Under the pieces are notes generated by a model. That model did not search any database, was not told the DNA's origin, and saw only the letters and a list, made by a program, of their open reading frames with translations. 64,000 nt of DNA from Cytobacillus firmus (GTDB lineage Bacteria; Bacillota; Bacilli; Bacillales; Cytobacillaceae). Made by a program: the position numbers and the translations under genes. Positions 8,754-25,129 of the stretch are shown here, piece after piece; position 1 is the stretch's first letter, and every line of letters begins with the position of its first letter. The DNA lies in contig NZ_CP086235.1 of assembly GCF_023612095.1 (NCBI RefSeq), positions 2,057,501 through 2,121,500 of the forward strand, in the 5' to 3' direction.

Positions 8754-10537
8754 ATGGGTAAATCAATCCTTTTTGAAATTCAAGAAGAAGTGAACTTAGT
8801 GGCTGAAGCCATTAAATCTGTTTTGTCTTTAGAAGTAATTATTTATGATAAAAATAAAGTTGTTGTTACGGCCACAGGCGGGGGCACGCATGCAGTTGTG
8901 GGTGAGCCGGTTCGAGGACATATCATCGCAGAAGTCTTAAAAACAAATCATCCTGTTTACAATTTAGAGCCAGGTTTTCATGACGTATGCATAAGCTGTA
9001 TCCTTCATCAAAATTGCCCTGAAAAATCAGATGTTTCATATCCATTAACACATGAGGGTGAAATTGTCGGGGTTATCAGTTTAACTGCATTCTCTGAAAA
9101 ACAAAAAAATGAATTTAAAGAGAAGCATCGTATTTTATCAAATTACCTCGGGAAAATGGCGGATTTAATCAGCAGTAAAATAAATGGAACATCGCTTTTA
9201 AAGAAATATTTATCCACCTCACAAATGCTGCAAGTGACGATCCAATCCATGTACGAGGGAATCATCGCTGTTGATCAAAAAGGGTCCATTTTAGAGATGA
9301 ATCGTTCTGCAGAAAAAATACTAAATATAAAAAAACAAAATGTTTTAACTTTGAATATTTCAGAAGTTATTCAAAACCTTCCGATTACAAAAGTATTTTC
9401 AACGGGACAAGGATACTCGGATAAAGAATGTTCTCTTGTTGTAAATGGAAAAATGATTCAAGTCATTATCAGTGCTAACCCTCTGATCCATAACAGCCAA
9501 ATTATTGGATGTGCCATTACCCTCAAAGATTTAGCCGAGGTTCAAAAGTTTGCCTATTCTATAACATCAGAGGTAGATGATTCTACATTCGATATTATTG
9601 TGGGAAAAAGCCCTGCTATATTGCAGACAAAGGCGGCAGCCAAAAAAGTTGCGGCAACAGATTCTACCGTCATCTTTTTGGGGAGAGCGGAACAGGGAAG
9701 GAGCTTTTTGCCAGAGCACTGCATCAAGAGAGCAAAAGAGTCAATAAACCATTTCGGGCCATTAATTGTGCAGCCATTCCAGAACATTTACTGGAAAGTG
9801 AATTGTTTGGATATAGCGAGGGTGCGTTTACGGGTGCAAGGAAAAGTGGAAAGCCGGGAAAATTTGAAATGGCACAAGGAGGCACTATTTTTCTGGATGA
9901 AATAGGTGATATGCCATTGCATTTGCAAGTGAAGCTGTTAAGAGTGTTAGAAGAAAGAAAAATTGAACGGATTGGTTCGAATAACTCAATAGATATTGAT
10001 ATCAGAGTCGTTGCAGCAACCCATAAAAACTTAGAAAAAATGGTAGCTGACGGGGAATTTCGGCAGGATTTATTTTTTAGGCTAAGCGTCATTCCGCTTC
10101 ATATTCCCCCATTGAGGGAAAGAGATGGGGATATTCCCGTCCTGCTCCAGCATTTTGTACAGCACTACGATAAAATTACGGGAAAGAAAGTGAGAGGTTT
10201 CACTCCTGATGCGGAGAATCGGCTTTGTTCGTACAACTGGCCAGGTAATATACGTGAACTTCAAAATGCTGTGGAATATGCCATAAACATGGCAACTGAC
10301 CACTGGATTAGAGTAGAAAACCTGCCTCCGAGAATCCGTGAACAAAATCACCTGAATGCTGATAAAGAAAATATTACTCTGGCAGAAATGGAAGAAAAAA
10401 TGATAATGGATGCATTAAAGAGATATGGTGATACATTGAATGGAAAGAAACAAGCTGCAGATGAACTTGGTATAAATGTAGCAACTCTGTACAGGAAAAT
10501 TAATAAATACGAGCTTAATCGCAAAATGCAATTATAG
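8754..10537 (+). CDS. Sigma-54-dependent transcriptional activator (frameshifted in this sequence)
   Basis: A 594-residue bacterial enhancer-binding protein once one base is restored. Order: N-terminal sensor (about 1-140, with a Cys-rich [14 protein letters not shown] stretch), PAS (about 155-265), AAA+ (about 280-515) and a Fis-type HTH (about 545-590, [19 protein letters not shown]). GAFTGA, the sigma-54 contact loop, begins near residue 357. Walker A (GESGTGKE, about 310-317) is disrupted: the G run at 9680-9683 has four G where five restore the frame. Translation splits into 8754-9905 and 9803-10537. Start ATG 8754 follows AGGAGG. It probably activates the divergent-free operon downstream through the promoter at 10726. 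The sensor ligand is unknown; it is presumably the operon substrate. Confidence 0.88.
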
Positions 10538-10630
10538 TTAGCAAATTGCGATTACGTTAAAAACATAGCTGATTTGTCTTTTCTTCTAAATTTGGACAGA
10601 TCTCCTATGTTTTTTTTGCAATTTGCGAAC
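10519..10630. promoter_or_regulatory. Candidate upstream activator sites for the sigma-54 regulator
   Basis: Three similar AT-centred motifs occur 96-207 bp upstream of the -24 element: CGCAAAATGCAATTA (10520-10534), AGCAAATTGCGATTA (10540-10554) and TTGCAATTTGCGAAC (10616-10630). The common core is GCAAATTGC or its complement. The distance is right for an enhancer-binding protein. The first overlaps the 3' end of the regulator gene. Assignment is by position and repetition only. Confidence 0.5.
10561..10617 (+). terminator. Terminator of the sigma-54 activator gene
   Basis: AAACATAG with a following imperfect stem (TGATTTGTC / GACAGATCT) pairs to CTATGTTT and runs into eight T. It separates the regulator transcript from the operon. 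Confidence 0.65.
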
Positions 10631-10725: not shown

Positions 10726-10743
10726 TTGGCACGGTACTTGCAT
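10726..10743 (+). promoter_or_regulatory. Sigma-54 (RpoN/SigL) promoter
   Basis: TTGGCACG-N4-TTGCAT matches the -24/-12 consensus TGGCAC-N5-TTGC with the invariant GG and GC exactly 10 bp apart. It lies 38 bp before the ATG at 10781 and directly after a gene for a sigma-54 activator. The whole operon 10781-25027 is expected to depend on SigL. Confidence 0.92.
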
Positions 10744-10780
10744 TCTAACTAGTTGAAGTAAAAAAACGAGGGGGAGTGCA

Positions 10781-11761
10781 ATGAGAATCATAAATAAAAT
10801 GTTTATGATGAAGTCCGTTCAGACTTTATTGAAGACATGTCTAAATGTAAAGCCTGGAGAAAACCTATTGATTCTAACGGATACAAATACGACTGAGATT
10901 GGAGAGGTTTTCGCACTTGCTGGTGAAGGGATGGGAGCAGAGGTTGTTATGACAATCATGAATCCCACCACAAGGCATGGGGATGAACCGCCAAGAATCA
11001 TTGCAGAAGCAATGAAAGCAGCTGATGCGATCGTTGCTCCGACAACTTTTTCTATTAATCATTCCACTGCCAGAAAAGAAGCAAGTAATGCAGGAGCAAG
11101 ATTAATATTTATGCCCGATGCGAATGACGAGGTTTTCTTAGATGGTTCACTGGATATCGATTATTTTGCACAAAAGAAAATAATCGATAAGGTATCCACC
11201 ATACTTGAAGAAGGAGAACGATTGAGCATAACAACCCATTTAGGTACAGAGCTTTCTATGTCCATATCAGGACGTCATGCTGTACCTCAAACTGGAATTT
11301 GCCATGAACCTGGAAGCATTTCACCCCCTCCTTGCATTGAAACAGCAGTGGCACCAATAGAAGGAACGACAGAAGGAATCATGTACATTGATGGGGCCAT
11401 TGTGCCGGGAAGGGCTTGTGAAGATCCAGTTAAAGTAGTCTTTAGAGAAGGTAAAATCATTTCCATTGAAGGAAAAGAAGATGCTGAAATGCTTAAGCAA
11501 ACGCTGGAAAGTTACAATCATCCCAATGTATATTGCGCAGTGGAAATGGGAATTGGCATGAATCCAAAGGCGAAAATTGGCAGAGGAGGGCAGCTGGAAG
11601 ACGAGGCAGAGTACGGAACGATGCATATTGGAATTGGCAATGGCATTACATTTGGAAGCAGTATCAGAGCCCCGGGGCATTGTGATTTAGTGATTCGAAA
11701 ACCGACTATCAAGGTGGATGGGAAAATCCTTATGAAAGATGGAGAACTCTATATAGATTAG
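10781..11761 (+). CDS. M29-like aminopeptidase / NicX-type metalloenzyme family protein, copy 1
   Basis: 326 residues. It resembles the family that holds thermophilic aminopeptidases (M29) and NicX-type 2,5-dihydroxypyridine dioxygenases: a Rossmann-like N-terminal half (NLLILTDTNTTEIG, DAIVAPTTFSINHSTARKEA) and a metal-rich C-terminal half (AVAPIEGTTEGIMYIDG, EMGIGMNPKAKIGRGGQLEDE, GPGHCDLV-like APGHCDLVIRKP). It is the first gene behind the sigma-54 promoter. A paralog lies at 16857. Hydrolase, amide-opening or ring-opening activity is possible; sequence alone does not decide. Confidence 0.65.
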   Translation: MRIINKMFMMKSVQTLLKTCLNVKPGENLLILTDTNTTEIGEVFALAGEGMGAEVVMTIMNPTTRHGDEPPRIIAEAMKAADAIVAPTTFSINHSTARKEASNAGARLIFMPDANDEVFLDGSLDIDYFAQKKIIDKVSTILEEGERLSITTHLGTELSMSISGRHAVPQTGICHEPGSISPPPCIETAVAPIEGTTEGIMYIDGAIVPGRACEDPVKVVFREGKIISIEGKEDAEMLKQTLESYNHPNVYCAVEMGIGMNPKAKIGRGGQLEDEAEYGTMHIGIGNGITFGSSIRAPGHCDLVIRKPTIKVDGKILMKDGELYID

Positions 11762-11774
11762 GGAGGAGGTTTGT

Positions 11775-13292
11775 TTGGGAGAAATAAGTCTAATCGGCGA
11801 ATCACTGGCCAGTTTCTTTACAGTTAAAATCATGCTTTTATTTCTTATTGGCACAGTTGCCGGAATGGCAGTCGGTGCACTTCCAGGTCTAACTACTACC
11901 ATGGGAGTATCCTTGCTGATTTCATTTACCTGGGGGATGGAATGGATAGAAGCAATGGTTCTAATTGTGTCTGTTCATATAGGAGGAACCTATGGAGGAT
12001 CCACGCCAGCCATCTTCTTAAATATCCCGGGTACTCCGGCCTCAGCTGCGACTGCTATGGATGGCTATCCAATGGCCCAGCGGGGGGAAGGAGGACTGGC
12101 AAGAGGACTGGCAACCTTCCAATCCTTTTTAGGTACTATTCTGGCGGCTGTTTTATTTCTGATAGGGGCGCCGCTCCTGCTGGATTTAAGTATGAATTTC
12201 GGATCATGGGAGTATTTTCTGCTAGCCATGTTTGGAATTATTCTCAGCGCAAACCTAACGGCTGCATCATTGTCGAAAGGGCTAATTTCCGGGATCTTAG
12301 GACTAGCTTTAGCCACAGTGGGAATGGATAAGATCACAGGCGCACAGCGTTTTACTTTTGGAGAAAGTGCACTCATGGATGGCTTTAGTCTAATTGCAGT
12401 CTTAATCGGAGTATTTGGAATTGCTGAGGTAATCGACTCTATTATGCAGCTCAAGAAGCCTTTAAAAGCAGAGAAATTCCAATCTATTTTTCCCCCGTGG
12501 AAGATGTTGGTGAAGTTTTTGCCCGCCGGCGGAAGATCTTCTGTTATAGGAGCAGCGATAGGAGCGATACCGGGTGTTGGAGCAGATGTAGCAGCCTGGG
12601 TTTCATATGATGTGGCTCGCCGAAGAAGCAAGAAGCCTGAGACGTTTGGCAAAGGAAATCCAGAAGGAATCGTTGCGGCAGAAACGGCAAATAACGCTTG
12701 TGTGCCAGGTACATATATACCGATGTTAATTCTTGGTATCCCTGGTGATGCAGTCACAGCAGTTATTATAGGGGGACTTTTACTTCACGGATTGCAGCCA
12801 GGTCCGCTTTTACTCACACAAAATCCTGATATATTGAATCAGTTTTTTATCATTTTAACGATATCTGCTGCGTTTATGCTTGTGTTTGGATTATTTTTCT
12901 CTTATTTTTTTCAGAAAATCCTATCTGTTCCCAGAAGTATAGTTTTGCTTATTGTAACGGTATTTAGTGTGGTAGGGACATTTGCAGTAAACAATCGGCC
13001 ATTTGATATTGGAATTATGTTCCTTTTTGGCATCATCGGTTTTCTTATGCGTAAAGTCGGGCTGGCTGCCCCGCCTTTAGTGTTAGGATTGATCCTTGGT
13101 TTAATGGCGGAACAGAATTTCCGAAGAGCCATGGTGAGTGCGGATTATTCGTTCGTGCCATTCTTCACACGGCCAATTAGTCTTTTCTTGCTGGTCTGTA
13201 TTGTATTTTTGATTTTGAATCAAAATTCATTCCTGACAAAACGCGTAAAACATCTGTGGAGGAAAATAAAGCCTAAGGGGGCTAACTTATGA
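11775..13292 (+). CDS. Tripartite tricarboxylate transporter, large permease TctA
   Basis: 505 residues with about 11-12 hydrophobic segments. Family signatures are GTVAGMAVGALPGLTTTMGVSLL near the N-terminus, GGTYGGSTPAIFLNIPGTP, and the internal repeat-like GAIPGVGADVAAW and PMLILGIPGDAVTAV. TctA is the large membrane subunit of a secondary transporter that works with a binding protein (next gene) and TctB. Start is TTG 11775 behind GGGAGGAGG, 13 bp after the preceding gene. Its 3' end overlaps tctC by 4 bp. Substrates in this family are carboxylates; the specific one is unknown. Confidence 0.93.
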   Translation: MGEISLIGESLASFFTVKIMLLFLIGTVAGMAVGALPGLTTTMGVSLLISFTWGMEWIEAMVLIVSVHIGGTYGGSTPAIFLNIPGTPASAATAMDGYPMAQRGEGGLARGLATFQSFLGTILAAVLFLIGAPLLLDLSMNFGSWEYFLLAMFGIILSANLTAASLSKGLISGILGLALATVGMDKITGAQRFTFGESALMDGFSLIAVLIGVFGIAEVIDSIMQLKKPLKAEKFQSIFPPWKMLVKFLPAGGRSSVIGAAIGAIPGVGADVAAWVSYDVARRRSKKPETFGKGNPEGIVAAETANNACVPGTYIPMLILGIPGDAVTAVIIGGLLLHGLQPGPLLLTQNPDILNQFFIILTISAAFMLVFGLFFSYFFQKILSVPRSIVLLIVTVFSVVGTFAVNNRPFDIGIMFLFGIIGFLMRKVGLAAPPLVLGLILGLMAEQNFRRAMVSADYSFVPFFTRPISLFLLVCIVFLILNQNSFLTKRVKHLWRKIKPKGANL

Positions 13293-14332
13293 AACTAAAA
13301 ATGATGTTTCTGACTCTATTTTCAGGGGTTCTGATATTAAGCGCCTGTGCTGGAAACCAATCAAATCAAAAGGCATCTGGAAACAGCGAAGAAGCAGAAA
13401 GTGATTACCCTTCACAGCCAATTGAAATTATTGTCGGTTTTAGTGAGGGAGGCGGTACTGACACAATGGCACGGACCCTGCAGCCAATCCTTCAGGAAGA
13501 ACTGGGAGAATCCGTTGCGGTGAGGAACATGCCTGGAGCTTCCAGTGCATTGGCTCTTGAGTATGTTAACGAACAAGAGTCTGACGGACACACCATCCTA
13601 TTTCAAACCGATCTGATCCGTGTATTTCCAACAATGGGCATGACAGATTTAACATACAAGGATTTCGAGCAAATTGGAATTGGCGCAATGGGGATTGCCA
13701 ATTTTACAGTTAAAGACGAATCTGACCTGAAAACGTTTGATGATGTGGTTCGGCTCTTGAAAGATGGAAATGCAAAGGTTGGTGTGGCAGCGATTGGGGA
13801 CCCTTGGCACCTCACTTTGGAGATTGTGAATAGTGTCGTGGGTGGAGATGCAGAAATTATTACGTATGATTCTGGTGCAAATGCTGCCATGGCTGCTATG
13901 AAAGGTGAGGTAGATTTCTCTATCAGCGGGGTTAATGAGGTAGTGGATCTGCTGAGGGCAGGGGATTTACGATCACTGGCTGTTATGGATAATAAACCGT
14001 TTGAAGTTGATGGACTTGAATCAATCCCGCCGGTCACTGATTTTGTTTCTGATTTGAAAAAATATGTACCGGAAGGAACCTGGTGGGGGCCAGCTGTAAA
14101 AAGCGGAACACCTGAAGAAATCGTAACTAAAATTAGAGACGCATACAACAAAGCGATCAGCAGTGATGAATTTAAGGAATTTACAAAAAAACGGGCAATT
14201 ATCCTAACAGATATTGAAGATAGTCAAGAATATACAAAACAAATCACCGAAAAAACAAGCTGGCTGCTTTGGGATATTGGTGTGGGAAAACGATCACCAG
14301 AAGAAGTAGGAATTAGCCGGCCGAAAGAGTGA
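13289..14332 (+). CDS. Tripartite tricarboxylate transporter, substrate-binding lipoprotein TctC
   Basis: 347 residues with a lipoprotein signal peptide; the lipobox LSAC places the lipidated Cys at residue 20. The mature part carries the TctC/Bug signature PIEIIVGFSEGGGTDTMAR and KDFEQIGIG. It binds the substrate outside the membrane and delivers it to TctA/TctB. ATG 13289 overlaps the tctA stop. Gene order here is A-C-B. Confidence 0.93.
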   Translation: MKLKMMFLTLFSGVLILSACAGNQSNQKASGNSEEAESDYPSQPIEIIVGFSEGGGTDTMARTLQPILQEELGESVAVRNMPGASSALALEYVNEQESDGHTILFQTDLIRVFPTMGMTDLTYKDFEQIGIGAMGIANFTVKDESDLKTFDDVVRLLKDGNAKVGVAAIGDPWHLTLEIVNSVVGGDAEIITYDSGANAAMAAMKGEVDFSISGVNEVVDLLRAGDLRSLAVMDNKPFEVDGLESIPPVTDFVSDLKKYVPEGTWWGPAVKSGTPEEIVTKIRDAYNKAISSDEFKEFTKKRAIILTDIEDSQEYTKQITEKTSWLLWDIGVGKRSPEEVGISRPKE

Positions 14333-14347
14333 TAGAAAGGAGAAAAG

Positions 14348-14794
14348 ATGCGGATAAATAAAGATTATCTTTTGGCGGGCATTGTTTTCGCGATTGGTCT
14401 CTTTTTTGTAATAGGCAGCTATAATTTCCCGCCAGGAGAACATTTTTTAAATTCATCTCGTTCATTTCCCATGCTGCTCGGCTATAGTTTGATAGGTTTA
14501 TCAATCTGGCAGTTTGCCCAAACGTTCAGAAAGAAAAAAGAGGAGGAAGAGGAAACGGCTTCTGCCTCCATTCAGGAAGTTAAAAGAGGGATAGTCTATC
14601 TGCTTTTAACAGTTGTTTATATCTTTCTGTTAATACCTTTCATAGGGTTTCTGTATTCTACTTTAATCTTTTTACTCATTGGAATGCTCTATTATAAGGA
14701 AGTTCGATGGTATACGGCCACATTAGTATCCATAGGGATGATTGGATTCATCTATGTGGTGTTTGAAAAACTCATGTATATTCGATTACCTTGA
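14348..14794 (+). CDS. Tripartite tricarboxylate transporter, small membrane subunit TctB
   Basis: 148 residues with four hydrophobic segments separated by a highly charged KKKEEEEET loop, the usual TctB topology. It starts at ATG 14348 after AGAAAGGAG. It completes the TctABC set. It is followed by a 119-bp gap, the longest within the operon; I see no terminator there. Confidence 0.85.
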   Translation: MRINKDYLLAGIVFAIGLFFVIGSYNFPPGEHFLNSSRSFPMLLGYSLIGLSIWQFAQTFRKKKEEEEETASASIQEVKRGIVYLLLTVVYIFLLIPFIGFLYSTLIFLLIGMLYYKEVRWYTATLVSIGMIGFIYVVFEKLMYIRLP

Positions 14795-14913
14795 AAAACG
14801 AAATTATTATTTACTCTCTTACATGATCCAATGATTCAATGAAAGACGAGGAGACAGGATTTAAAGAATTCGCTGTAAAAGGAAATCAAATAATAGATAT
14901 GGCGGTGATTTAA

Positions 14914-16038
14914 ATGAGGATAAAGCAAACAATTGAAAGAGTTCCCGGAGGGCTGATGGTCATCCCGCTGATGCTTGGCGCTTTATTTAATACGATTGAT
15001 CAGCTTCACATTCCATTTATAATGAATTTCCTTAAAAGCATAGGGGTATCGCCGGTTGAAGAAGGAATTTATGAGTTTATGAAAATCGGAGGATTCTCGG
15101 AAGCACTCTTTAAGACAGGAACGTTAACGCTCATTGGCTTGTTCTTATTTTGTGCAGGCAGCCAGATGAATTTGCGGGTAGGCGGAAAGGCCTTAAAGAA
15201 AGGAATTCTATTAACAGGAAGCAAGTGCTTGACAGGGATTGCCATCGGTATTTTATTTGGGGTGTTTTTTGACCCAATGGACGGTCTGCTTGGATTATCT
15301 ACTCTGGCCATTATTGCCGCTATGACCAATGGGAATGAAGGAATGTATGCAGTGTTGACAGGGCAATACGGAAACCGGTCAGATGTTGGGGCCATTTCCG
15401 TCCTGACTCTGAATGACGGTCCTTTTTTCACCATGCTGGCTTTGGGGATGGTTGGCGTTAATTTTCCTTTAATCGCATTCATAGCTGTCTTGCTTCCAAT
15501 CGCTTTAGGAATGCTGTTAGGGAATCTGGATGAAGATATTCGGGAGTTTTTAAAGCCTGGAGAAACGCTGCTTGTACCATTCTTTGCTTTCTGTCTTGGA
15601 GCAGGGATGAATTTTATGAGTTTCTTTAATCCTGAAGCTGTTTGGGGAGGTTTAGCTCTCGGGTTTGCCACAGTCATTTTTACCGCATTAACAGGAATCC
15701 TGGTTTATAGGCTATTTGGAGAAAAAAGTACGATTGGCCCTGTTGCAGAAGCATCGACTGCCGGGAACGCAGTGGGGACACCTGCTGCAATCGCAGCGGC
15801 AGCATCAGTGGCAGCGGGTGCAGGTCTGATGACGGTGGAAAAGGCTCGAAGTTTTCAGGAAATTGCCAATTTAGCCACAATACAAATTTCCATTTCTACT
15901 ATTACTACCTCGATATTATGCCCAATAGCCGTCATTTTATGGGATAAGTATCAAAGAAGCAAAGGCATAGATGGACGTCTGGAGGATATACCCAGGAAAA
16001 AAATAAAAATCTCTGCTGAGCTCGAACAGGAATCTTAG
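14914..16038 (+). CDS. KdgT-family permease (2-keto-3-deoxygluconate permease-like)
   Basis: 374 residues with about ten hydrophobic segments. Typical for the family are the start IKQTIERVPGGLMVIPLMLGA (first part), AAMTNGNEGMYAVLTGQYG, GDVGA-like RSDVGAISVLTLNDGPFFTM and EASTAGNAVGTPAAI. Known members import 2-keto-3-deoxygluconate or related acids with protons. Having both Tct and KdgT transporters in one operon suggests two substrates, or uptake plus export of an intermediate. Substrate is inferred only to be an organic acid. Confidence 0.85.
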   Translation: MRIKQTIERVPGGLMVIPLMLGALFNTIDQLHIPFIMNFLKSIGVSPVEEGIYEFMKIGGFSEALFKTGTLTLIGLFLFCAGSQMNLRVGGKALKKGILLTGSKCLTGIAIGILFGVFFDPMDGLLGLSTLAIIAAMTNGNEGMYAVLTGQYGNRSDVGAISVLTLNDGPFFTMLALGMVGVNFPLIAFIAVLLPIALGMLLGNLDEDIREFLKPGETLLVPFFAFCLGAGMNFMSFFNPEAVWGGLALGFATVIFTALTGILVYRLFGEKSTIGPVAEASTAGNAVGTPAAIAAAASVAAGAGLMTVEKARSFQEIANLATIQISISTITTSILCPIAVILWDKYQRSKGIDGRLEDIPRKKIKISAELEQES

Positions 16039-16054
16039 AAGGGTGATGAAAAGG

Positions 16055-16819
16055 TTGGAAAAAATTCATGCTGAAATATCCGATTTTATTTGCACCATTA
16101 CCATTAAAAACCCGCCAATGAATATTTTGACGAAAGAGTTTCGGCAGGAGTTTGTTCCTTATATGGAGGAGCTTAAAACCTCTTCGGATGTCAGGGTTAT
16201 TGTCCTTACTGGAGAAGGGGATCGGGCATTTTGCGCAGGAGCCGATTTAAACGAAGAAGGAGAGCTGACACCTGAATCCGTCAGGCACTTCTTAGAAGAA
16301 GATTGCAGAATTTACGATATTGTCAATGAAATGCCCCAGCCTGTCATTGCCGCAGTTAATGGCTATGCGTTTGGCGGAGGGTTCGAGCTTGCCTTAGCCT
16401 GTGATATCCGTATCATTTCGGAACGTGCGAAGCTATGTGCAGCAGGGGTAAAGGTTGGACTGGTTGTGGGACCAACCCGGTTAGTAAGACTGCTGGGTGA
16501 AGCATATGCCAAAGAAGTGATTTTGACAGGCAGAACCATAACAGCTGAGGAAGCATTTCAAAGAGGGCTGGCCAGCAGAGTGGTATCTCATGACAAGCTG
16601 CTGGCAGAAGCGCAGGAATGGGCACAGCTGATTGCTTCCCGTGCTCCAATCGCAGTAAGACATGCTAAGAACACAATTCAGAAGACCATGGATGCAGAGT
16701 GGCAGGAAGCAATGAAACAGGAATTGGATGCGTTTATTGAATGTCAGGATACATGGGATCACAAGCATGCGATTGAATCGTTCTTTAACAAAAAGCCGCC
16801 AGTATTTAAAGGGATATAG
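16055..16819 (+). CDS. Enoyl-CoA hydratase/isomerase family protein (CaiD-like position)
   Basis: About 254 residues, crotonase fold. The oxyanion-hole segments are GDRAFCAGADL and AVNGYAFGGGFELALACDIRI. It acts on a CoA thioester, adding water across or moving a double bond. I prefer TTG 16055, nine bases after GAAGGGTG, over GTG 16043 or ATG 16046, which sit too close to the ribosome site. It shares the operon with a family III CoA transferase and a CaiE-like protein, the same trio of families as in carnitine operons. Confidence 0.88.
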   Translation: MEKIHAEISDFICTITIKNPPMNILTKEFRQEFVPYMEELKTSSDVRVIVLTGEGDRAFCAGADLNEEGELTPESVRHFLEEDCRIYDIVNEMPQPVIAAVNGYAFGGGFELALACDIRIISERAKLCAAGVKVGLVVGPTRLVRLLGEAYAKEVILTGRTITAEEAFQRGLASRVVSHDKLLAEAQEWAQLIASRAPIAVRHAKNTIQKTMDAEWQEAMKQELDAFIECQDTWDHKHAIESFFNKKPPVFKGI

Positions 16820-16856
16820 TTAGTTATAAAAATTGAATCAGGGAGTTGTTTTAAAA

Positions 16857-17852
16857 ATGAAAGAAGCACTAATGTACCCGGCTGCTACTGCACTAGTAAA
16901 AGTTCTGGCAGGTGTTGAGAGCGGGGAAAAGGTTGTCATCTTAACAGATTTTTTAACGGATGGAATCACAAAAGTTCTGGCATCTGTTGTTTGTTCACTC
17001 GACGCAGAGCCCATCACGATCTCCATGCCGCCAAGGAAAGGGCATGGAGATGCATTGCCGGATGCAGTGGCAGCGGCTATGAAAGAGGCAGATGTGATCA
17101 TCGCACCGACAACTTATAATATTGCCCATACAAAAGCACGCCATGATGCGCAAAAGGCCGGGGCCCGCGTATTAATCTTACCTGAAGCACATGAAGACAT
17201 TTTATTAAGCAAGGGGCTGCGTGCTGACTTTGCTGCACTAAGACCTCAAGTTGAGAAACTGGCAGACCTATTGACCAATGGAGAATCTGTCCGCATTACA
17301 ACATCCCTTGGAACAGATTTAAGATTCTCCATCAAAGGCAGGTCAGGCAGAGCCTTAACAGGGTTTGCAAATAGCACGGATGTTTCGGCAGCGCACTGTA
17401 TAGAATCCAGCATTGCCCCTGTTGAAGGAACCGCTGAAGGTATTTTAGTGGTGGATGGAAGTATTCCGGGAGTTGGTTTAATGGAGACTCCGGTTGAAGT
17501 GGTATTTAAGGAAGGAAAGGCCGTTTCGATTACGGGAGGCAGAGAAGCGGAGCAATTCAGGAAGATATTAATGGAGAAGAATGATGAAGAAGGAAATATC
17601 TATTTTGCTGGTGAGTTTGGCATAGGCATGAATCCGGAATGTGAATTGGAAAACAGCATGCTAAGTGATGAAGGTGTTTTTGGAACCATCCATATTGCTT
17701 TAGGTACGAATGCATATATTGGGGGAACTGTTAAGGCCAAAGGGCATTACGATATGGTCGTTAAGGATCCCCGGGTAGAAATTGACGGGAGACTTATTCT
17801 GGACAATCAGGAACTCTATTTAATTGAAGATAAAGCCTTAAATAGACTTTGA
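16857..17852 (+). CDS. M29-like aminopeptidase / NicX-type metalloenzyme family protein, copy 2
   Basis: 331-residue paralog of the operon's first gene, with matching blocks: VVILTDFLTDGITK, HGDALPDAVAAAMKEADVIIAPTTY, SIAPVEGTAEGILVVDGSIPG, EFGIGMNPECELE and KGHYDMVVKDP. ATG 16857 is preferred over an upstream in-frame TTG at 16833, which lies before the ribosome site GGGAG at 16841. Two divergent copies in one operon point to two related reactions or a heteromeric enzyme. Substrate is unknown. Confidence 0.65.
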   Translation: MKEALMYPAATALVKVLAGVESGEKVVILTDFLTDGITKVLASVVCSLDAEPITISMPPRKGHGDALPDAVAAAMKEADVIIAPTTYNIAHTKARHDAQKAGARVLILPEAHEDILLSKGLRADFAALRPQVEKLADLLTNGESVRITTSLGTDLRFSIKGRSGRALTGFANSTDVSAAHCIESSIAPVEGTAEGILVVDGSIPGVGLMETPVEVVFKEGKAVSITGGREAEQFRKILMEKNDEEGNIYFAGEFGIGMNPECELENSMLSDEGVFGTIHIALGTNAYIGGTVKAKGHYDMVVKDPRVEIDGRLILDNQELYLIEDKALNRL

Positions 17853-17889
17853 AACAGTGGAATTCATTTTATAGAAGGAGATGATTTGA

Positions 17890-19035
17890 ATGGGTGCATT
17901 GGAAGGCATTAGAGTAATTGACTTGAGCCAGGTCATGGCAGGGCCATATTGCGGTATGCTGCTGGCTGATATGGGTGCTGATGTTATAAAAGTGGAACCG
18001 CCAAAAGGTGAGAGTACCAGAAGATGGTCCCCATATAAGGAAGGGGAGAGCGGTGCGTTTATGGCGATAAATCGCAACAAGCGCAGCATAACGCTTGATT
18101 TAAAAAGCAGTGAAGATCAGAAGGTGTTTTACAAGTTAATTGAAACTGCGGATATTTTGATAGAAAATTTCCGCCCCGGGGTTGTAAAGCGACTGGGAGT
18201 TGACTATGAAACCCTCAATCAGATAAATCCGAAACTCATCTATTGCTCTATTTCCGGATTTGGCCAGTATGGCCCATATTCCTCCCGTGGCGGTTATGAC
18301 TTAATCGCACAGGGAATGACCGGCATTATGAGTGTGACAGGTGAACGGAATGGCAACCCGGTGAAATGCGGACTTCCGATTATCGATTTGGGTTCTGGCC
18401 TGTTTTCTGTCTATGGTATTTTATCCGCATTGTATGCAAGGGTTCATTCCAATGAGGGGCAGTATATTGACGCATCTTTATATGATACGGGAATCGCATT
18501 GTCGGTTTGGGAAAGCACTCAATATTGGTTTACGGGAGAAACACCTGCACCTACTGGAAGCGGACACCGCTTGTCTGCTCCTTACCAGGCATTTCGTGCC
18601 AGTGATGGTTATTTTACTGTTGGTGCAGATACACCGCATCATTGGCCCGTGTTCTGCCAGATCATCGGCAGACCTGAATTCTTATCGGATGACCGATTTG
18701 TTGATGATGCCTCCCGAATTCAGCACTTAAATGAATTTGTCAGATTAATTGAAGAGAAAACAAGTCTGAATCCAAGACACTACTGGCTGGAAAAATTCGA
18801 GAAAGCGGGGATTCCCGCAGGCCCGATCAATACCTATCCTGAATCTTTAAATGACCAGCACACACTATCCAGAAGAATGGTAGAAGAGGTTGTACACCCT
18901 GTTGCCGGGAAAATAAAAGCATTAGGGATTCCTGTTAAACTATCAAAAACACCTGGAAAGGTTGCAAAAGCTGCGCCTGTACTGGGAGAACATAAGGAAG
19001 AGATTTTAAAAGAATTAGGGCTCGCAGCTAAATAA
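17890..19035 (+). CDS. Family III CoA transferase (CaiB/BaiF/Frc type)
   Basis: 381 residues. Family signatures: GALEGIRVIDLSQVMAGPYC, LADMGADVIKVEPP, FMAINRNKRSITLDLKS and the catalytic-Asp segment SRGGYDLIAQGMTGIM. The enzyme moves CoA from a donor thioester to a carboxylic acid, so it probably activates the operon substrate for the crotonase-fold enzyme. ATG 17890 follows AAGGAG. Closest characterised relatives act on oxalate, carnitine, bile acids or succinate/mesaconate; sequence alone does not choose. Confidence 0.92.
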   Translation: MGALEGIRVIDLSQVMAGPYCGMLLADMGADVIKVEPPKGESTRRWSPYKEGESGAFMAINRNKRSITLDLKSSEDQKVFYKLIETADILIENFRPGVVKRLGVDYETLNQINPKLIYCSISGFGQYGPYSSRGGYDLIAQGMTGIMSVTGERNGNPVKCGLPIIDLGSGLFSVYGILSALYARVHSNEGQYIDASLYDTGIALSVWESTQYWFTGETPAPTGSGHRLSAPYQAFRASDGYFTVGADTPHHWPVFCQIIGRPEFLSDDRFVDDASRIQHLNEFVRLIEEKTSLNPRHYWLEKFEKAGIPAGPINTYPESLNDQHTLSRRMVEEVVHPVAGKIKALGIPVKLSKTPGKVAKAAPVLGEHKEEILKELGLAAK

Positions 19036-19073
19036 CATTTAAATCCTGCTACTCAGTAAGGAGAAGGATATAC

Positions 19074-19601
19074 ATGATTAAACCTTTAAAAGGACGTGTT
19101 CCATCCATTCATGCCGAAACCATGGTACACGGCTCGGCACAAGTGATAGGAGACGTCAGAATAGCCAAGAATGTGAGTGTATGGCCTCAATCAGTCTTAC
19201 GGGCAGATGATGATAATTTTATCGAAATTGGTGAAGGAAGCAATATTCAGGACGGGTGTATCTGTCATGTGACACCAGAGGCTCCATTAAGGATAGGGAG
19301 AATGGTAACGGTAGGGCATGGTGCCATTTTACATGCCTGTACGGTCGAGGATGGAGCATTGATTGGCATCGGTTCTATTATCTTAGATGGAGCGGTCATT
19401 GAAAAAGGAGCACAAGTGGGAGCGGGTGCATTAGTTCCTCCAGGGAAAGTGATTCCAAAAGGCAGCTTGGCTGTTGGAGTTCCTGCCAAAATTGTGCGTG
19501 AACTAACAGAGAATGAAAGACATGACCTGGAAAAAAATGCAGAAGAATACATTGAGCTATGGAAACGCGATTATCGTGAAGAGAGTGAGGAGTCATTATG
19601 A
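19074..19601 (+). CDS. Gamma-carbonic-anhydrase-like hexapeptide protein (CaiE/PaaY type)
   Basis: 175 residues with left-handed beta-helix hexapeptide repeats. The His-bearing turn VGHGAILHACTVEDGALIGIG is typical of gamma-carbonic anhydrase-like proteins; CaiE and PaaY are members linked to CoA pathways. It may be a CoA-thioester housekeeping hydrolase or a carbonic anhydrase. It starts at ATG 19074 after AAGGAG and overlaps the aminotransferase start by 4 bp. Confidence 0.88.
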   Translation: MIKPLKGRVPSIHAETMVHGSAQVIGDVRIAKNVSVWPQSVLRADDDNFIEIGEGSNIQDGCICHVTPEAPLRIGRMVTVGHGAILHACTVEDGALIGIGSIILDGAVIEKGAQVGAGALVPPGKVIPKGSLAVGVPAKIVRELTENERHDLEKNAEEYIELWKRDYREESEESL

Positions 19602-20904
19602 TTAATGAGAATAAAAGTTTAGCAGAAAGAGGAGACAGTGTTCTGCCCCCGGCTGCCAACAGAGTAACGAGGATAGGTGTAACGAAAGCATTTGGCTCAA
19701 CCGTAGAGGATGAAAACGGAAAAAAATATCTCGATTTTGCCAGCGGTGTAGGAGTAAATAATGTTGGACACTGCCATCCCGAGGTAATTGAAGCGGTAAA
19801 GCAGCAGCTGGATACGATGATTCATATTGGCCATAATGTGGCCTACTATCCATCCTATATTCAACTGGCGGAGAAGTTAAACGAATTAACCGGAAAAGAG
19901 AAGATGGTGTACTTTTCAAATAGCGGAGCAGAAGCGAATGAGGGAGCAATAAAATTAGCAAAAAAAGCGACAAAGCGTCCAGCCATTTTATCATTCAAAC
20001 GGGGATTCCATGGACGGACACTCGCAGCGACATCGATCACTTTCTCAAGCTCAGCTTATCGTCAGGATTATGAAGGCCTTCTTCCAAGCGTATATGCTTG
20101 TGAATATCCATATCCTTTTAGAACCGGGCTTAGTTATGAAGAAGAGACGAAACGATGTATTCAAAGCATCCATGAAGTATTCCAGTATCAAGTTGCTCCA
20201 TCCCAGGTAGCAGCCATAATCCTTGAACCAGTACAGGGAGAGGGAGGGTATATTGTACCCCGAAAGAATTTTTGAAACAAATAAGAGAAATATGTAATCA
20301 GCATGGGATATTGCTTATTTTTGATGAAGTACAGACCGGATTCGGAAGAACAGGGAAAATGTTTGCTTATGAACATTTTGGAGTTGAGCCGGACATTCTT
20401 ACCTTAGGAAAGGGAATTGCTTCAGGCTTCCCTTTAAGTGCCATCATTGCCAAGAAAGAAATTATGGAGAAATGGGAGCCGGGAACACATGGAGGCACTT
20501 ATGGCGGAAATCCTGTCTCGTGTGCGGCTGCCTTGGCTTCCATTGAAATTTTAAAACGGGAAGGGATAGATAATGCCCAAACTTTAGGGGGATATTTAAA
20601 GCAGCAATTATATGATTTACAGTCAGAATATTCCGTTATTGGTGATGTTAGAGGTCTGGGCCTGATGATTGGCATTGAGTTCACGGATGAAAAAGGCTGC
20701 CCGGATGCCAGTACAGTAAATTGGCTGAAGAATTTTGCTTTAGAAAACGGAGTCATTCTTTTAACCTGCGGCACTGAGAAGAATGTTTTGCGGTTTATCC
20801 CGCCTGTAACGGTATTAAAAGAGGAACTTGATCAAGCAGTTTCTGTACTGAAAGAAGGATTGCAGCAGCTCGCAAAAAAGGAGAACGGTCATGCTATATA
20901 TTAA
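19598..20904 (+). CDS. Class III aminotransferase, GabT-like (frameshifted in this sequence)
   Basis: PLP enzyme of 435 residues once one base is restored. Signatures: NVGHCHPEVIEAVKQQ, SGAEANEGAIKLAKK, LIFDEVQTGFGRTGKMFAYEH and the PLP-Lys segment LTLGKGIASGFPLSAI. The frame breaks at the C run 20258-20261: four C are present and five restore GEGGYIVPPKEFLKQI. The pieces translate as 19598-20275 and 20272-20904. The family converts omega-amino groups to semialdehydes (4-aminobutyrate and similar). It stands directly before a semialdehyde dehydrogenase, so the two steps are probably sequential. Confidence 0.88.
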
Positions 20905-22315
20905 TGGAGAATGGAAATCTTCTAATAAAAATAAATCGATAACTGTGTATAATCCTGCTACTTTAGAAAAATTCGGTACGGTCGCTTATGGAGGAAAGGA
21001 AGAAGCCGAGGAAGCCATCCAGGCAGCATCCGCTGCCTTTCAAGACTGGAAGAAAACAAGCGCAGTTGAAAAATCGCAATATCTGAGAAAGATTGCCGAT
21101 TGTCTAAGAGACAGAGAAGAAGAACTGGCAGTAACCATTACGAAAGAGATGGGTAAACCCCTGAAAGAATCCATTGGTGAAGTCAAACTGGCGATTTCCT
21201 ATATGGATTGGTATGCAGAGGAAGCGAAGCGTATTTATGGAGAGACGATTCCAGCTTCCAGCCGTGATAAGCGCATACTGGTACTGCAGGAGCCAGTTGG
21301 GGTGACGGGTGCGATTACACCATGGAACTTTCCAGCCGCCATGGTTACCCGCAAAATTGCCCCAGCGTTAGCTGCCGGGTGTCCTGTCATCCTAAAACCA
21401 GCTTCAGCTACTCCCTTAACGGCAGTGAAGATATTCGAAGCCATTCATCAGGCTGGTCTGCCAAAAGGAGTAGCCAATTTGATTATTGGACCTTCTAATG
21501 AGATTGCCCAAACGTTATTAGACAGCAAGCAGGTGCGAAAACTGACTTTCACAGGTTCAACGGCAGTTGGGAAAAAGCTGATGAGAGACGCATCCAATAC
21601 GGTCAAAAAAGTTTCAATGGAATTAGGCGGTCATGCCCCCTTTATCGTATTTGAGGATGCTGATTTAGAGAAAGCAGCAGAAGCAGCGGTTGCGAGCAAG
21701 TTCAGGAATGCAGGACAAACGTGTGTATGCACAAACCGGATTTATGTTCAGAAGGAAGCAGCAGAGGAATTTACCCGCTTGTTTGCAGAAAAGGTAAATC
21801 GTCTGCAAATCGGGAATGGCATGGATGATGATACAGATATTGGGCCATTAATTAATGAAGAAAGCCTTGATAAAGTTGTTGAACATGTGGAAGATGCCAA
21901 AGAAAAAGGCGGTGTGGTGATTTGCGGCGGATCACTGGCAGATATGGATGCTAAAGGTGTATTCTATCAGCCTACTGTTATTCAACATGCAAATGAGTCG
22001 ATGAAGATTGCAAGAGAAGAAACTTTTGGCCCAGTGGTGCCGATTTTCACCTTTGAAACGGAAGAAGAAGCAATCGAACGGGCAAATCATCCAGAATACG
22101 GACTTGCATCTTACTGCTTCACTTCGGATTTAAATCGCGCCTTCCGGGTAATGGAATCTCTCGAATATGGCATTATTGGCATTAATGATGCGATGCCGAC
22201 AACAGCACAAGCCCCGTTCGGAGGAATGAAGGAAAGCGGTGTAGGAAGGGAAGGCGGCAAGTACGGAATGATGGAGTATCTGGAAGAGAAGTTTGTGTCA
22301 TTGAATATTGGATAA
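20891..22315 (+). CDS. NAD(P)-dependent semialdehyde dehydrogenase (GabD-like ALDH)
   Basis: 474 residues. ALDH motifs are visible: GAITPWNFPAAM, FTGSTAVGKKL, the catalytic Glu in ELGGHAPFI and the catalytic Cys in FRNAGQTCVCTNRIYV, the succinate-semialdehyde dehydrogenase pattern. It overlaps the aminotransferase by 14 bp and starts at ATG 20891 behind AAGGAG, so the two are translationally linked. It should oxidise the semialdehyde formed by the aminotransferase. A similar ALDH is encoded at 39231. Confidence 0.9.
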   Translation: MLYINGEWKSSNKNKSITVYNPATLEKFGTVAYGGKEEAEEAIQAASAAFQDWKKTSAVEKSQYLRKIADCLRDREEELAVTITKEMGKPLKESIGEVKLAISYMDWYAEEAKRIYGETIPASSRDKRILVLQEPVGVTGAITPWNFPAAMVTRKIAPALAAGCPVILKPASATPLTAVKIFEAIHQAGLPKGVANLIIGPSNEIAQTLLDSKQVRKLTFTGSTAVGKKLMRDASNTVKKVSMELGGHAPFIVFEDADLEKAAEAAVASKFRNAGQTCVCTNRIYVQKEAAEEFTRLFAEKVNRLQIGNGMDDDTDIGPLINEESLDKVVEHVEDAKEKGGVVICGGSLADMDAKGVFYQPTVIQHANESMKIAREETFGPVVPIFTFETEEEAIERANHPEYGLASYCFTSDLNRAFRVMESLEYGIIGINDAMPTTAQAPFGGMKESGVGREGGKYGMMEYLEEKFVSLNIG

Positions 22316-22332
22316 TCAAAGGGGCCATCAGA

Positions 22333-23732
22333 ATGGAATTATTAATGAAGGAAATAAGAAGCATGATACCTTCAGACCAAATTTTTACGAGTTTGGCTGA
22401 TCGATATAGTTATAGTTATGATGCTTCATTCGGCAGCTATCTTCCTGAAGTGGTCATCCAGGTGAAAAATAAGGAAGAGATTTCTTCCCTTCTGAAGCTG
22501 GCCAATTCATTTAACATACCGGTATACCCCAGAGGTCAGGGAACTTCCTTAAGTGGAGGTCCTCTCCCTGTTAAGGGGGGATGGTTTTAGACATGTCCCA
22601 ATGGAATGGTGATTTAAAAATTTACCCTGATGATTTGGTGGCAGTCGTATCACCGGGTGTACTGACAGCGGACATCAATAAAGAAGCAGAAAAGTTTGGA
22701 CTCATGTACCCCCCAGATCCCAGCAGTGCCCATGTATCAACAATTGGAGGGAATTTAGCGGAAAACTCCGGCGGACCAAGGGGCTTAAAATATGGAGTAA
22801 CGAAGGATTATGTTATTGGTTTGGAAGTGGTGACACCTGAGGGAGAAATAATCAAAACAGGCGGAAAGACAATAAAAAATGTAACTGGATATGACTTAAC
22901 AAAATTGATCGTTGGATCGGAAGGCACGCTTGGCATCATTACGGAAGCAACACTGAAATTAGTGCCCAAGCCTCCGGCATCAAAGACCATGATGGCTGTC
23001 TTTGATGATCTTGTACAGTCAGGACAAGCGATTTCGAAAATATTAACTTCCGGAATCCTTCCGGCCAAAATGGAAATAATGGATCAGTCCTCCATAATAG
23101 CTGTGGAGAACTATCAGCCGCTGGGGCTTCCTATTGACGCAGAAGCCATTCTTTTAATAGAACTTGATGGCCACCCTCTGGCTATTGAAGAAGAAATGAA
23201 AACAATAGAAGAGATTTTTACAGACTTTGAATCTGTGAAAGTGAAAATTGCAGAAAATCAGGACGAAGCACAGAGTTACTGGAGAGCAAGGAAGCTGGTT
23301 TCCCCGGCTATTGTAAAGATAAAACCGACGAAAGTTTCTGAAGATGCCACAGTGCCCCGCAGTAAGATTCCCGATATGTTCCAAAAACTAAAAGAAATCC
23401 GTGAGAAATACGATATTCACCTAGTCGTGTTTGGGCATGCGGGTGACGGGAACCTTCATCCTAATATTATCTGTGATAAAAGAGATACGGAGGAAATGAT
23501 CCGGGTTGAAAAAGCCGTAGAGGAAATCTTTAAAGCGGCTGTTGAACTGGGAGGGACACTATCCGGTGAACATGGAATCGGAACATTGAAAGCTCCTTTT
23601 ATGGAGATGGAATTGGGTGCAGCCGGTCTTGATATGATGAAGAGAATTAAACAAATATGGGACCCGAATAACATTTTAAATCCAGGTAAAATCTTTCCAG
23701 AAGAAGGCCAGAAGCTGGTGCTTAGGGAATGA
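22333..23732 (+). CDS. glcD: FAD-linked 2-hydroxyacid oxidase, GlcD-like (frameshifted in this sequence)
   Basis: 466 residues once one base is restored. The FAD-binding type 4 domain carries PRGQGTSLSGGPLP and PPDPSSAHVSTIGGNLAENSGGP. The C-terminal domain has GHAGDGNLHPNI and ends HGIGTLKAPFM...ILNPGKIFP, as in glycolate/D-lactate oxidases. The break is in the G run 22575-22580: six G are present and seven restore VKGGMVLDMSQ. Pieces translate as 22333-22590 and 22581-23732. Its partner glcF overlaps the stop by 4 bp. The actual hydroxyacid (glycolate, D-lactate, 2-hydroxyglutarate or other) is not known. Confidence 0.9.
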
Positions 23733-25027
23733 GTACAGGAGCCGCTCTAAAAGACAGATTACATTATAAGGAGACGTTTAATTGTGTCCAATGCGGATAT
23801 TGCCTGCCGGTTTGCCCCACTTACGAAACGATGAAGAGCGAGGTGCATTCGCCGCGTGGCCGCATTAATCTTGTCAAAATGCTGGCAGAAGACAAGATCA
23901 AGGCAGAGGATCTGCGGGAACCCATCGAAAAGTGCCTTGGATGCCGCGCCTGCGAAACTGCCTGCCCCACCAGTGTTCAGTACGGGAAGATACTAGAAGG
24001 AGCAAAAGAGGTTCTAGAATTTGCAGAGCAAAAATCGAGAGCGCAAAAAATAAGTGAATCATTGATTTTTGATCAAATGTTTTCATCAAAGAGATGGATG
24101 AATACAATAGGTAATCTTTCATGGTTTTATCAAAAGTCCGGGCTGCAGAAAATGGCACAAAGAACAGGGATCACTCAGCTTGCTCCGCTTCACATGGGGA
24201 CATTTGAGTCTGTTCTCCCTGATCTTCCATCTCCGGCAGAACGGAAAAACAGGGCCCGCCTTTACAAAGCCATTGGTTCCAGAAAAATCACTGTTGGATT
24301 TATTACCGGCTGTGTAATGGATGCCATTTTCTATGAGACGAACAGGAACACAATTGACCTTCTGACAAAGGCTGGAGCTGACATACTTATTCCTGAGAGT
24401 CAGACTTGCTGTGGAGCGCTGCATGCACATGCAGGGAAAATTGCGGACGCTAAAGCTCTTGCCAAACGAAATATTGAGGCATTTGAAAAGGAGGAAGCAG
24501 ACTATATCGTTAACAATGCTGGAGGATGCGGCGCGACGCTTTTGGAATATGGCGAACTATTTAAGGGAAACATCGAATGGGAAAGCCGTGCACAAGCTTT
24601 TTCTAATAAAGTAAGAGATATTTCACAGGTGCTAGCTGAATTAGATGGTCTGAACTTTACAAAGGAAGTGAATGGAACCATAACCCTTCAGCCATCCTGT
24701 CATATGATTAATGTTCAAAAGGTGAAAGATGAGCCAATATCTTTATTAAAGCAAGTAAAAAGCAAAGGGTACCGTGAAATGAAAGACAAAGAACGGTGCT
24801 GTGGATCGGCTGGCATCTACAATATTGTTAACTATGAGGATTCCATGGAAATATTGGATAGTAAAATGAAAAATGCGAAAGACACAAATGCATCTATAAT
24901 TGTTACTTCCAATCCAGGCTGTCTGCTGCAAATGAAATTAGGGATTCAAAGGGAAGGGCTTGAGAAGAGTGTAAGGGCTATTCATTTTGTGGATTTGCTG
25001 ATTGAGGCTGGGGCGGTTTCTAAATAA
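23729..25027 (+). CDS. glcF: Iron-sulfur subunit of glycolate oxidase-like enzyme, GlcF
   Basis: 432 residues. Two [4Fe-4S] motifs are seen near the N-terminus, CVQCGYCLPVCP and CLGCRACETACP. Two CCG-type domains follow (SQTCCGALHAHAG, and ERCCGSAGIYN near the C-terminus), which form the electron-transfer part of the GlcDF complex. GTG/ATG overlap with glcD (ATG 23729) implies coupled translation. It is the last gene of the operon; a terminator follows at 25100. Confidence 0.93.
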   Translation: MSTGAALKDRLHYKETFNCVQCGYCLPVCPTYETMKSEVHSPRGRINLVKMLAEDKIKAEDLREPIEKCLGCRACETACPTSVQYGKILEGAKEVLEFAEQKSRAQKISESLIFDQMFSSKRWMNTIGNLSWFYQKSGLQKMAQRTGITQLAPLHMGTFESVLPDLPSPAERKNRARLYKAIGSRKITVGFITGCVMDAIFYETNRNTIDLLTKAGADILIPESQTCCGALHAHAGKIADAKALAKRNIEAFEKEEADYIVNNAGGCGATLLEYGELFKGNIEWESRAQAFSNKVRDISQVLAELDGLNFTKEVNGTITLQPSCHMINVQKVKDEPISLLKQVKSKGYREMKDKERCCGSAGIYNIVNYEDSMEILDSKMKNAKDTNASIIVTSNPGCLLQMKLGIQREGLEKSVRAIHFVDLLIEAGAVSK

Positions 25028-25099: not shown

Positions 25100-25129
25100 C
25101 CGCACAGTGAGAATACTGTGCGGTTTTTT
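25100..25129 (+). terminator. Terminator of the sigma-54 operon
   Basis: CCGCACAGT-N6-ACTGTGCGG followed by TTTTTT, 73 bp after glcF. No comparable hairpin is seen upstream within the operon. Confidence 0.92.

Follow-up and report, generated by a model that had tools for sequence, protein, structure and literature searches.

Several described bacterial systems share parts with the locus reported here. The cai operon of enterobacteria holds the CaiB/CaiD/CaiE set for carnitine, the itaconate and mesaconate pathways use a coenzyme A (CoA)-transferase and then a hydratase, and the Bacillus gab operon is a sigma-54-dependent operon for γ-aminobutyrate (GABA). We analysed a 64,000-nucleotide stretch of the Cytobacillus firmus genome (assembly GCF_023612095.1, contig NZ_CP086235.1, positions 2,057,501 to 2,121,500; hereafter the window), in which an initial annotation, made from the letters alone, had described 13 genes as a sigma-54 operon for a CoA-dependent catabolic pathway. 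Similar to cai, the operon brings together a family III CoA-transferase, a crotonase and a CaiE-like hexapeptide protein. The CoA-transferase, however, scores 136 against 413 for L-carnitine CoA-transferase and the hexapeptide protein 117 against 305 for CaiE, while the operon lacks CaiA and CaiC and adds a pair of M29-fold proteins (M29A and M29B), an aminotransferase with an aldehyde dehydrogenase (ALDH), and GlcDF. The logic of a family III CoA-transferase plus a crotonase is shared with itaconate and mesaconate degradation, but no citramalyl-CoA lyase is present among the 13 genes and the CoA-transferase reaches 322 against a mesaconate cut-off of 700. In common with gab, a sigma-54 activator lies beside a GABA transaminase (GABA-T)-like aminotransferase, and there is a succinate-semialdehyde dehydrogenase (SSADH)-like enzyme. 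In contrast with gab, the aminotransferase and ALDH are here dispensable parts of a CoA operon, and a further GABA-T-like gene, with an activator of its own, lies at 3.745 Mb in the genome (G000:C1:3744068-3746368; sigma-54 site at 3745421, adjacent sigma-54 activator at 3745868), which is probably the classical gab system. The M29-like pair has the overall fold of NicX (2,5-dihydroxypyridine 5,6-dioxygenase, 7cn3; PMC7910607), its best sequence match, but with two of the four iron ligands replaced and M29 ligands present. With the M29 aminopeptidases AmpT, AmpS and PepS the pair shares the fold (TM-score 0.58-0.64) and five ligand positions; M29A and M29B, however, are shorter by ~75-80 residues than the M29 peptidase of the same genome, fall below the Pfam cut-off and are linked to acid importers.

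The initial statement that no described pathway has this gene set agrees with the open-access literature, in which no description of the operon was found, although most subscription journals lie outside it and its silence is weak evidence of absence. A term search of the accessible text of a paper on the Clostridiales sigma-54 regulon (PMC6615313) likewise returned no occurrence of the operon. The parts are known families; what is new are the combination and two active-site departures that change the expected chemistry, namely, as judged from alignments, the peptidase-type metal ligands of the NicX-fold pair and the absence of the second catalytic glutamate from the crotonase. Known folds are gathered at this locus into a compact, conserved and apparently dedicated set, in a soil Bacillus relative and a few other species. 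C. firmus AMY 5.1.1 and Sporosarcina globispora DSM 4 are examples of relatives with intact genes, and finding the substrate in such a strain could give functions to two uncharacterised protein groups, one of which, the M29B-like group, is widespread in the phylum (101/398 sampled genomes).

The operon, its promoter and its activator

The sequence supports the view that the 13 genes form one sigma-54 transcription unit (Table 1). The promoter, TTGGCAC-N5-TTGCA, is the sole zero-mismatch match in the window; only this exact match is meaningful, because allowing up to two mismatches yields 11 matches where 10.5 are expected. Across the 4.38-Mb genome the exact pattern TTGGCAY-N5-TTGCW occurs 17 times, the operon promoter among them, and the reversed control pattern not once. 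At the other end, the terminator comprises a 10-pair stem with six G-C pairs followed by TTTTTT, and has the most G-C pairs of the 27 terminator-like sites between 8400 and 26400, a noisy scan in that 15.7 are expected from shuffles; the remaining plus-strand matches between promoter and terminator are all intragenic. The open reading frame (ORF) listing and domain scans place 13 plus-strand genes between these two elements, at intergenic distances of -14 to 119 bp. Within the 119-bp gap (14795-14913) a sequence scan found no terminator-like or sigma-70-like match, and no sigma-54-like site at 10 or more of 12 positions. A sigma-54-like site matching 10/12 positions lies inside tctC at 13466, and sites of 10-11/12 within coding sequence also occur in the related loci L040, L059, L060, L063 and L064. 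The framing of 13 genes by a sigma-54 promoter and a terminal hairpin, as first annotated, is thus upheld, and domain scans confirmed the assignments of TctA/C/B, KdgT, ECH, CoA-transferase III, hexapeptide/γ-carbonic anhydrase (γ-CA), aminotransferase III, ALDH, GlcD and GlcF. That account, however, left out the regulator and its candidate enhancer array.

The activator, whose AAA domain carries the GAFTGA motif, is a protein of 589-594 residues that is intact in nine other loci. In 10/10 loci (the window, L039, L040, L041, L059, L060, L061, L063, L064 and L065; L062 is apparently the same contig as L040 and was left out of these counts) a sigma-54 site matching 10-12 of the 12 consensus positions lies 3′ of the activator gene. 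Upstream of it, again in all ten, the palindrome TYGCAWWWTGCRA occurs three times, each copy exact or with a single mismatch, at ~207, ~187 and ~110 bp from the -24 element in nine loci (ranges 206-210, 186-189 and 109-120) and at 178, 158 and 78 bp in L064. Shuffling each of the ten loci 1000 times never gave three sites, a test that overstates significance somewhat because the motif was read off the same sequences. By number alone the palindromes do not stand out in the window (4 matches when up to one mismatch is allowed, against 2.4 expected; 23/100 shuffles reach 4), and it is the clustering, the conserved spacing and the genome count that carry the argument for putative enhancers. Genome-wide there are three exact copies of the motif, two of which lie at the operon (reversed control pattern, 0), and this makes the adjacent activator look dedicated to the 13 genes. 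The sigma-54 promoter precedes whichever gene comes first, be it M29A, KdgT (L041 and L063) or the CoA-transferase (Ammoniphilus). The -24/-12 element, the AAA+ activator with GAFTGA and the candidate enhancer sites together place the locus among sigma-54 operons.

Two minor features lie 5′ of the activator gene. A 10/12 sigma-70-like site at 8664-8692 may be the activator's own promoter, although such matches are not enriched (43 against 39.5 in shuffles). At 7917-8459 there is a C-terminal fragment of a GH30-family glycoside hydrolase; L039 and L040 have short reading frames at this position.

Table 1. Coordinates of the operon and its regulatory features in the window
Feature	Position	Strand	Remarks
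Sigma-54 activator (SpoVT_C/GAF-like, PAS, AAA with GAFTGA, Fis-type helix-turn-helix)	8754..10537	+	Two overlapping ORFs, frameshift near 9.7 kb
Candidate enhancer site 1, palindromic TYGCAWWWTGCRA	10519..10531	none	Overlaps 3′ end of activator gene
Candidate enhancer site 2	10539..10551	none	One mismatch in window, exact in 9 other loci
Candidate enhancer site 3	10616..10628	none	
Sigma-54 -24/-12 promoter	10726..10742	+	
M29A, M29-fold putative hydrolase	10781..11761	+	326 residues
TctA, large membrane subunit, tripartite tricarboxylate-type transporter	11775..13292	+	PF01970
TctC, solute-binding protein	13289..14332	+	PF03401
TctB, small membrane subunit	14348..14794	+	PF07331
KdgT-family permease	14914..16038	+	PF03812
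Crotonase-superfamily enzyme	16043..16819	+	First catalytic Glu kept, second replaced by Gly, loop shorter
M29B, M29-fold putative hydrolase	16833..17852	+	331-339 residues, conserved start 16857
Family III CoA-transferase	17890..19035	+	Nearest succinate-glutarate / mesaconate type
γ-CA-like hexapeptide protein	19074..19601	+	CaiE/PaaY relative
Class III (omega-)aminotransferase	19598..20904	+	Two ORFs (19598-20275, 20272-20904), frameshift near 20.26 kb
SSADH-like ALDH	20891..22315	+	
GlcD-like flavin (FAD) 2-hydroxyacid dehydrogenase subunit	22333..23732	+	Frameshift near 22.58 kb
GlcF-like iron-sulphur subunit	23729..25027	+	
Intrinsic terminator	25100..25123	+	

Active sites and family assignments

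By both sequence and fold, NicX is the nearest solved structure to the M29-like proteins: a fold search with a predicted model (mean predicted local distance difference test, pLDDT, 77) gave TM-scores of 0.79 for NicX, 0.64 for AmpT, 0.58-0.61 for PepS and 0.59 for AmpS. PMC7910607 gives His265, Ser302, His318 and Asp320 as the NicX iron ligands. These align with Glu253, Ala281, His297 and Asp299 in M29B and with Glu, Gly, His and Asp in M29A, and thus only the last two of the four (His318 and Asp320) are conserved. E183, E253, H279, H297 and D299 are invariant in 46/46 aligned relatives (the operon proteins plus neighbours scoring >120 bits and longer than 300 residues), and are the same residues, E, E, H, H and D, as in the genome's own full-length M29 peptidase, positions that we take to be the M29 metal ligands. 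Since the M29 set is kept while two NicX ligands are replaced, M29A and M29B are probably M29-type hydrolases rather than ring-cleaving dioxygenases. The label 'M29/NicX-like' given to the pair at the outset therefore stands for the fold and nearest structure, and fails for the NicX metal ligands.

It could be argued from the NicX likeness that the operon opens the ring of an N-heterocyclic acid oxidatively and then degrades the product in CoA-dependent steps, ring opening being an option that the initial annotation had allowed for. We consider this very unlikely; in place of His265 and Ser302 there are Glu and Ala (M29B) or Glu and Gly (M29A) with the five M29 positions retained, hydroxylase and formamidase genes are absent among the 13, and the M29B-like family is common across the phylum, its carriers plausibly including many anaerobes. 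What the sequence supports of that earlier proposal is entry by uptake and hydrolysis by the M29-like pair, in which the M29 ligand set is kept and the reaction itself is predicted.

The crotonase matches PF00378 at 205 bits and so belongs to the superfamily. Aligned with 5jbx and 3kqf, it keeps the first catalytic Glu, whereas the second is replaced by Gly and the next loop is three residues shorter; in rat enoyl-CoA hydratase the two glutamates are numbered Glu144 and Glu164. The same residues are found in 7/7 aligned orthologues, one row being L062, apparently L040's contig. The enzyme thus lacks the pair of glutamates that defines enoyl-CoA hydratases, and plain hydratase activity is doubtful because the second of them is Gly. 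Of the 'CoA activation and hydration' first proposed, CoA-dependent catabolism remains and plain hydration is in question. A role like that of methylmalonyl-CoA decarboxylase is not claimed, as the active-site His of that enzyme appears, by eye, as Ala here.

The other enzymes fit broad families better than narrow ones. The CoA-transferase matches PF02515 (450 bits) but lies below the succinate-glutarate cut-off (NF052585, 339.9 against 750 bits), as it does for mesaconate. The hexapeptide protein is below both CaiE (NF010150, 116.9 against 305) and PaaY (TIGR02287, 125.8 against 319.6). The intact L040 copy of the aminotransferase falls short of GABA-T (TIGR00700, 451.3 against 506.65 bits) and satisfies the broader PRK08117 (596.5 against 574); the ALDH is narrowly below SSADH (TIGR01780, 617.6 against 646.35 bits). 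Similarly, the KdgT-like permease misses TIGR00793 (178.6 against 453.8) and matches the broader Pfam KdgT (298.8 against 25), and the intact L040 GlcD is below glycolate oxidase (TIGR00387, 521.3 against 567.9 bits). NCBIfam has no family for M29A, M29B, TctA or TctC. The closest structures are those of GABA-T and SSADH for the aminotransferase and ALDH, and glycolate oxidase and lactate dehydrogenase subunits for GlcD.

Gene content in relatives and the proposed pathway

The search of other Firmicutes for the same gene set was positive: all 13 genes are present in 7/10 loci, the window included, with a reduced set in two and a rearranged one in the tenth. Both reduced loci, L063 (Bacillus sp. 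FJAT-14578) and L041 (genome G340), lack M29A-TctACB; L063 also lacks an intact ALDH, and L041 lacks the aminotransferase and ALDH. In L063, ALDH fragments of 41 and 76 residues (E 1e-12 and 3e-38) remain in situ, and L041 retains one of 25 residues (64% identity, E 6e-4), a weaker case. These relics stand at the right place, and therefore the ALDH was lost in both compact relatives, which indicates that parts of the operon are dispensable. Loss of M29A-TctACB in the two is likely; a TctACB relic was looked for in L063 and L041 and not found, and the case rests on a short L063 ORF that reads MNTIRKIK where the M29A of L064 starts MNTIRKM. Kept in both are the activator, KdgT, crotonase, M29B, CoA-transferase, the γ-CA-like protein and GlcDF. 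The rearranged locus of Ammoniphilus resinae (L065) holds the activator, CoA-transferase, crotonase, a TRAP transporter, M29B and a different class III aminotransferase. Common to 10/10 loci, therefore, are the activator, CoA-transferase, crotonase and M29B.

The operon is rare and not confined to one genus. A scan for close M29B relatives (two 7-residue patterns over a named genome collection) returned 7 loci, one apparently the same contig as L040. In a sample of 397 genomes from the order, 25 have M29A-type matches at E<=1e-30, counting the window's own; one stretch was opened from each of 20 among the remaining 24 (31 matches), and three contained the operon (G307, G327 and G340). Crotonase orthologues at E<=1e-70 are found in 2/398 genomes sampled from the class, again counting the window's own. 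M29B-like proteins at E<=1e-40, by comparison, occur in 101/398 sampled phylum genomes, 96 of them outside the class. Plasmid searches gave only matches of <60% identity (152 records for M29B, 1860 for the crotonase).

These data suggest that the operon probably imports and breaks down an amide-containing organic acid; that it does so through two importer-hydrolase entries leading to one CoA branch and GlcDF-type 2-hydroxyacid oxidation is, in our judgement, an evenly balanced proposition. We infer activator binding, the substrate class, each reaction and the reaction order as follows. On sensing substrate or product, the operon's own activator would bind the three sites that precede the -24 element by ~110, 187 and 207 bp and switch the operon on. 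Two entry modules, TctACB with M29A and KdgT with M29B, would each import amide-linked carboxylic acids, which the M29-fold metallohydrolases would split. The CoA-transferase may then activate the released, probably di-, carboxylic acid, and the crotonase process the CoA ester, for which decarboxylation, C-X cleavage or hydrolysis is likelier than plain hydration, while the γ-CA-like protein possibly clears stalled CoA esters. A released 2-hydroxyacid would be oxidised by GlcDF, giving the 2-oxoacid; a released omega-amino acid would be taken on by the aminotransferase and semialdehyde dehydrogenase. In favour of this scheme, even the Ammoniphilus locus keeps the CoA-transferase, crotonase and M29B together with the activator. 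The genes that adjoin M29-like genes elsewhere give loose support to amide or peptide chemistry: Tct genes do so in 3/37 other loci (L054, L055 and L096, an M20-family hydrolase then following in L096), AbgT in L097, an SSF symporter in L047 and TRAP in the L065 version of the operon.

Several observations weigh against the amide-acid scheme. The closest fold of the M29-like proteins is that of a dioxygenase, both miss the Pfam M29 cut-off of 27 (PF02073; 26.1 and 25.2 bits), and the predicted crotonase structure (pLDDT 41) was not used. M29A and M29B share 39% identity. In a FastTree phylogeny of 46 sequences the two do not group as sisters (support for the joining clade is weak, 0.298), and thus may act on different bonds. 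The neighbourhoods of M29-like genes are mixed (AroM, radical SAM, M17, M20, AbgT, SSF, Tct), and most of the 37 other loci have no Tct gene beside the M29-like gene. No GlcDF or γ-CA match is present in the 21-kb Ammoniphilus stretch examined. Neither the G340 nor the Ammoniphilus genome encodes an aminotransferase of this type at E<=1e-80 (Ammoniphilus has the different one in its operon), and from its absence in G340 an amino acid may not be an obligatory product.

The same absence counts against the single linear GabT/GabD route envisaged initially, since L041 has no alternative aminotransferase of this type in its genome; two relatives have lost the ALDH, and one of these, L041, also lacks the aminotransferase, while the rest is kept. 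Together with the second GABA-T-like gene, the missing aminotransferase type in G340 and Ammoniphilus makes GABA turnover unlikely as the core function. A broader dicarboxylate/GABA-type pathway would dispense with amide chemistry: Tct and KdgT would import a C4-C6 acid that the CoA-transferase and crotonase degrade, GabT/GabD and GlcDF would serve GABA-like and 2-hydroxyacid side substrates, and the M29-like proteins would be unrelated or auxiliary. The CoA-transferase is nearest the succinate-glutarate and mesaconate families, the aminotransferase and ALDH are nearest GABA-T and SSADH structures, and the transporters belong to the Tct and KdgT families, whose substrates are acids. It should be emphasized, however, that M29B belongs to the set kept in 10/10 loci and that the genome already has the GABA-T-like gene at 3.745 Mb with its own sigma-54 site and activator; we regard this pathway as somewhat unlikely.

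A more specific version of the amide-acid scheme would make pantothenate, or else another 2-hydroxyacyl-omega-amino acid, the substrate and M29B the long-missing pantothenase. M29B would split pantothenate into pantoate and β-alanine; GlcDF would oxidise pantoate, a D-2-hydroxyacid; the aminotransferase and ALDH would convert β-alanine to malonate; and the CoA-transferase would form malonyl-CoA, from which the crotonase, as a decarboxylase, would yield acetyl-CoA. If true, every enzyme would have a part to play apart from the γ-CA-like protein and the second M29 protein. We raise it because of this chemical fit and because a 2023 paper states that the pantothenase protein is unknown (PMC10393543). 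It is nonetheless a long shot, as the aminotransferase and ALDH are dispensable in relatives and resemble GABA-type rather than known β-alanine enzymes, and the second M29 protein is left without a task. To our knowledge, no KdgT or Tct member is a pantothenate carrier. Carnitine, itaconate, lysine/glutarate, lactam and hydroxyproline routes were set aside by reasoning, without dedicated searches, because partner genes are missing or family scores are far below cut-off.

Frameshifts and the tract shared with AMY 5.1.1

The activator, aminotransferase and GlcD genes are each split by a frameshift in the window assembly; the initial gene list named genes that are indeed present, but overlooked these three interruptions. 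G307 (L039) and G327 (L040) have each of the three as one uninterrupted ORF. An unbroken activator gene is found in L041, L059-L061 and L063-L065 as well; the 435-residue aminotransferase is intact in all seven other loci having the gene (L039, L040, L059-L061, L063 and L064), and GlcD in all eight (the same seven and L041). Between 16,082 and ~57,000 (41 kb) the window differs from C. firmus AMY 5.1.1 by 5 substitutions and 9 indels, and all nine indels are one-base deletions in the window at homopolymer runs, two inside the operon and seven outside. Nine such deletions against five substitutions are the usual mark of sequencing error; the frameshifts are therefore read as errors, and the operon, on this comparison, is probably functional in the window strain. 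In contrast with this reading, the activator frameshift lies outside the near-identical tract. In addition, a ~200-kb comparison with G307 flags 9/37 conserved genes as broken in the window's genome (in reverse, 0/42), four of the nine by frame changes, three of which are in the operon; the other five show a stop only, a flag that an upstream alternative start can cause. Together with the three interrupted genes, this would fit an operon that is decaying and non-functional in the window strain, a possibility that we judge improbable given the AMY 5.1.1 tract and the intact genes in the relatives that carry them.

Nine homopolymer deletions in 41 kb suggest that the assembly may hold many spurious frameshifts, and the same caution applies to other pseudogenes called in this genome. 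The flanks of the tract are only ~84-95% identical to AMY 5.1.1, its left breakpoint falls within the operon, where the crotonase gene starts, and from this pattern the tract looks like a recent exchange between lineages. Two DUF188 (YaiI/YqxD) genes, at 6777-7223 (+) and 25432-25878 (-), are inverted relative to each other, 93% identical over 145 residues, and flank the operon; in the stretches retrieved for related loci a copy stands on the left in L062 (partial) and on the right in L059, and these one-sided copies fit a hybrid of two chromosome arrangements. At 26350-29829, an EVE-AAA protein gene followed by a McrBC-family gene resembles a type IV restriction system, and the McrBC-family gene reads as two ORFs, close to a homopolymer run that is one base shorter than in AMY 5.1.1.

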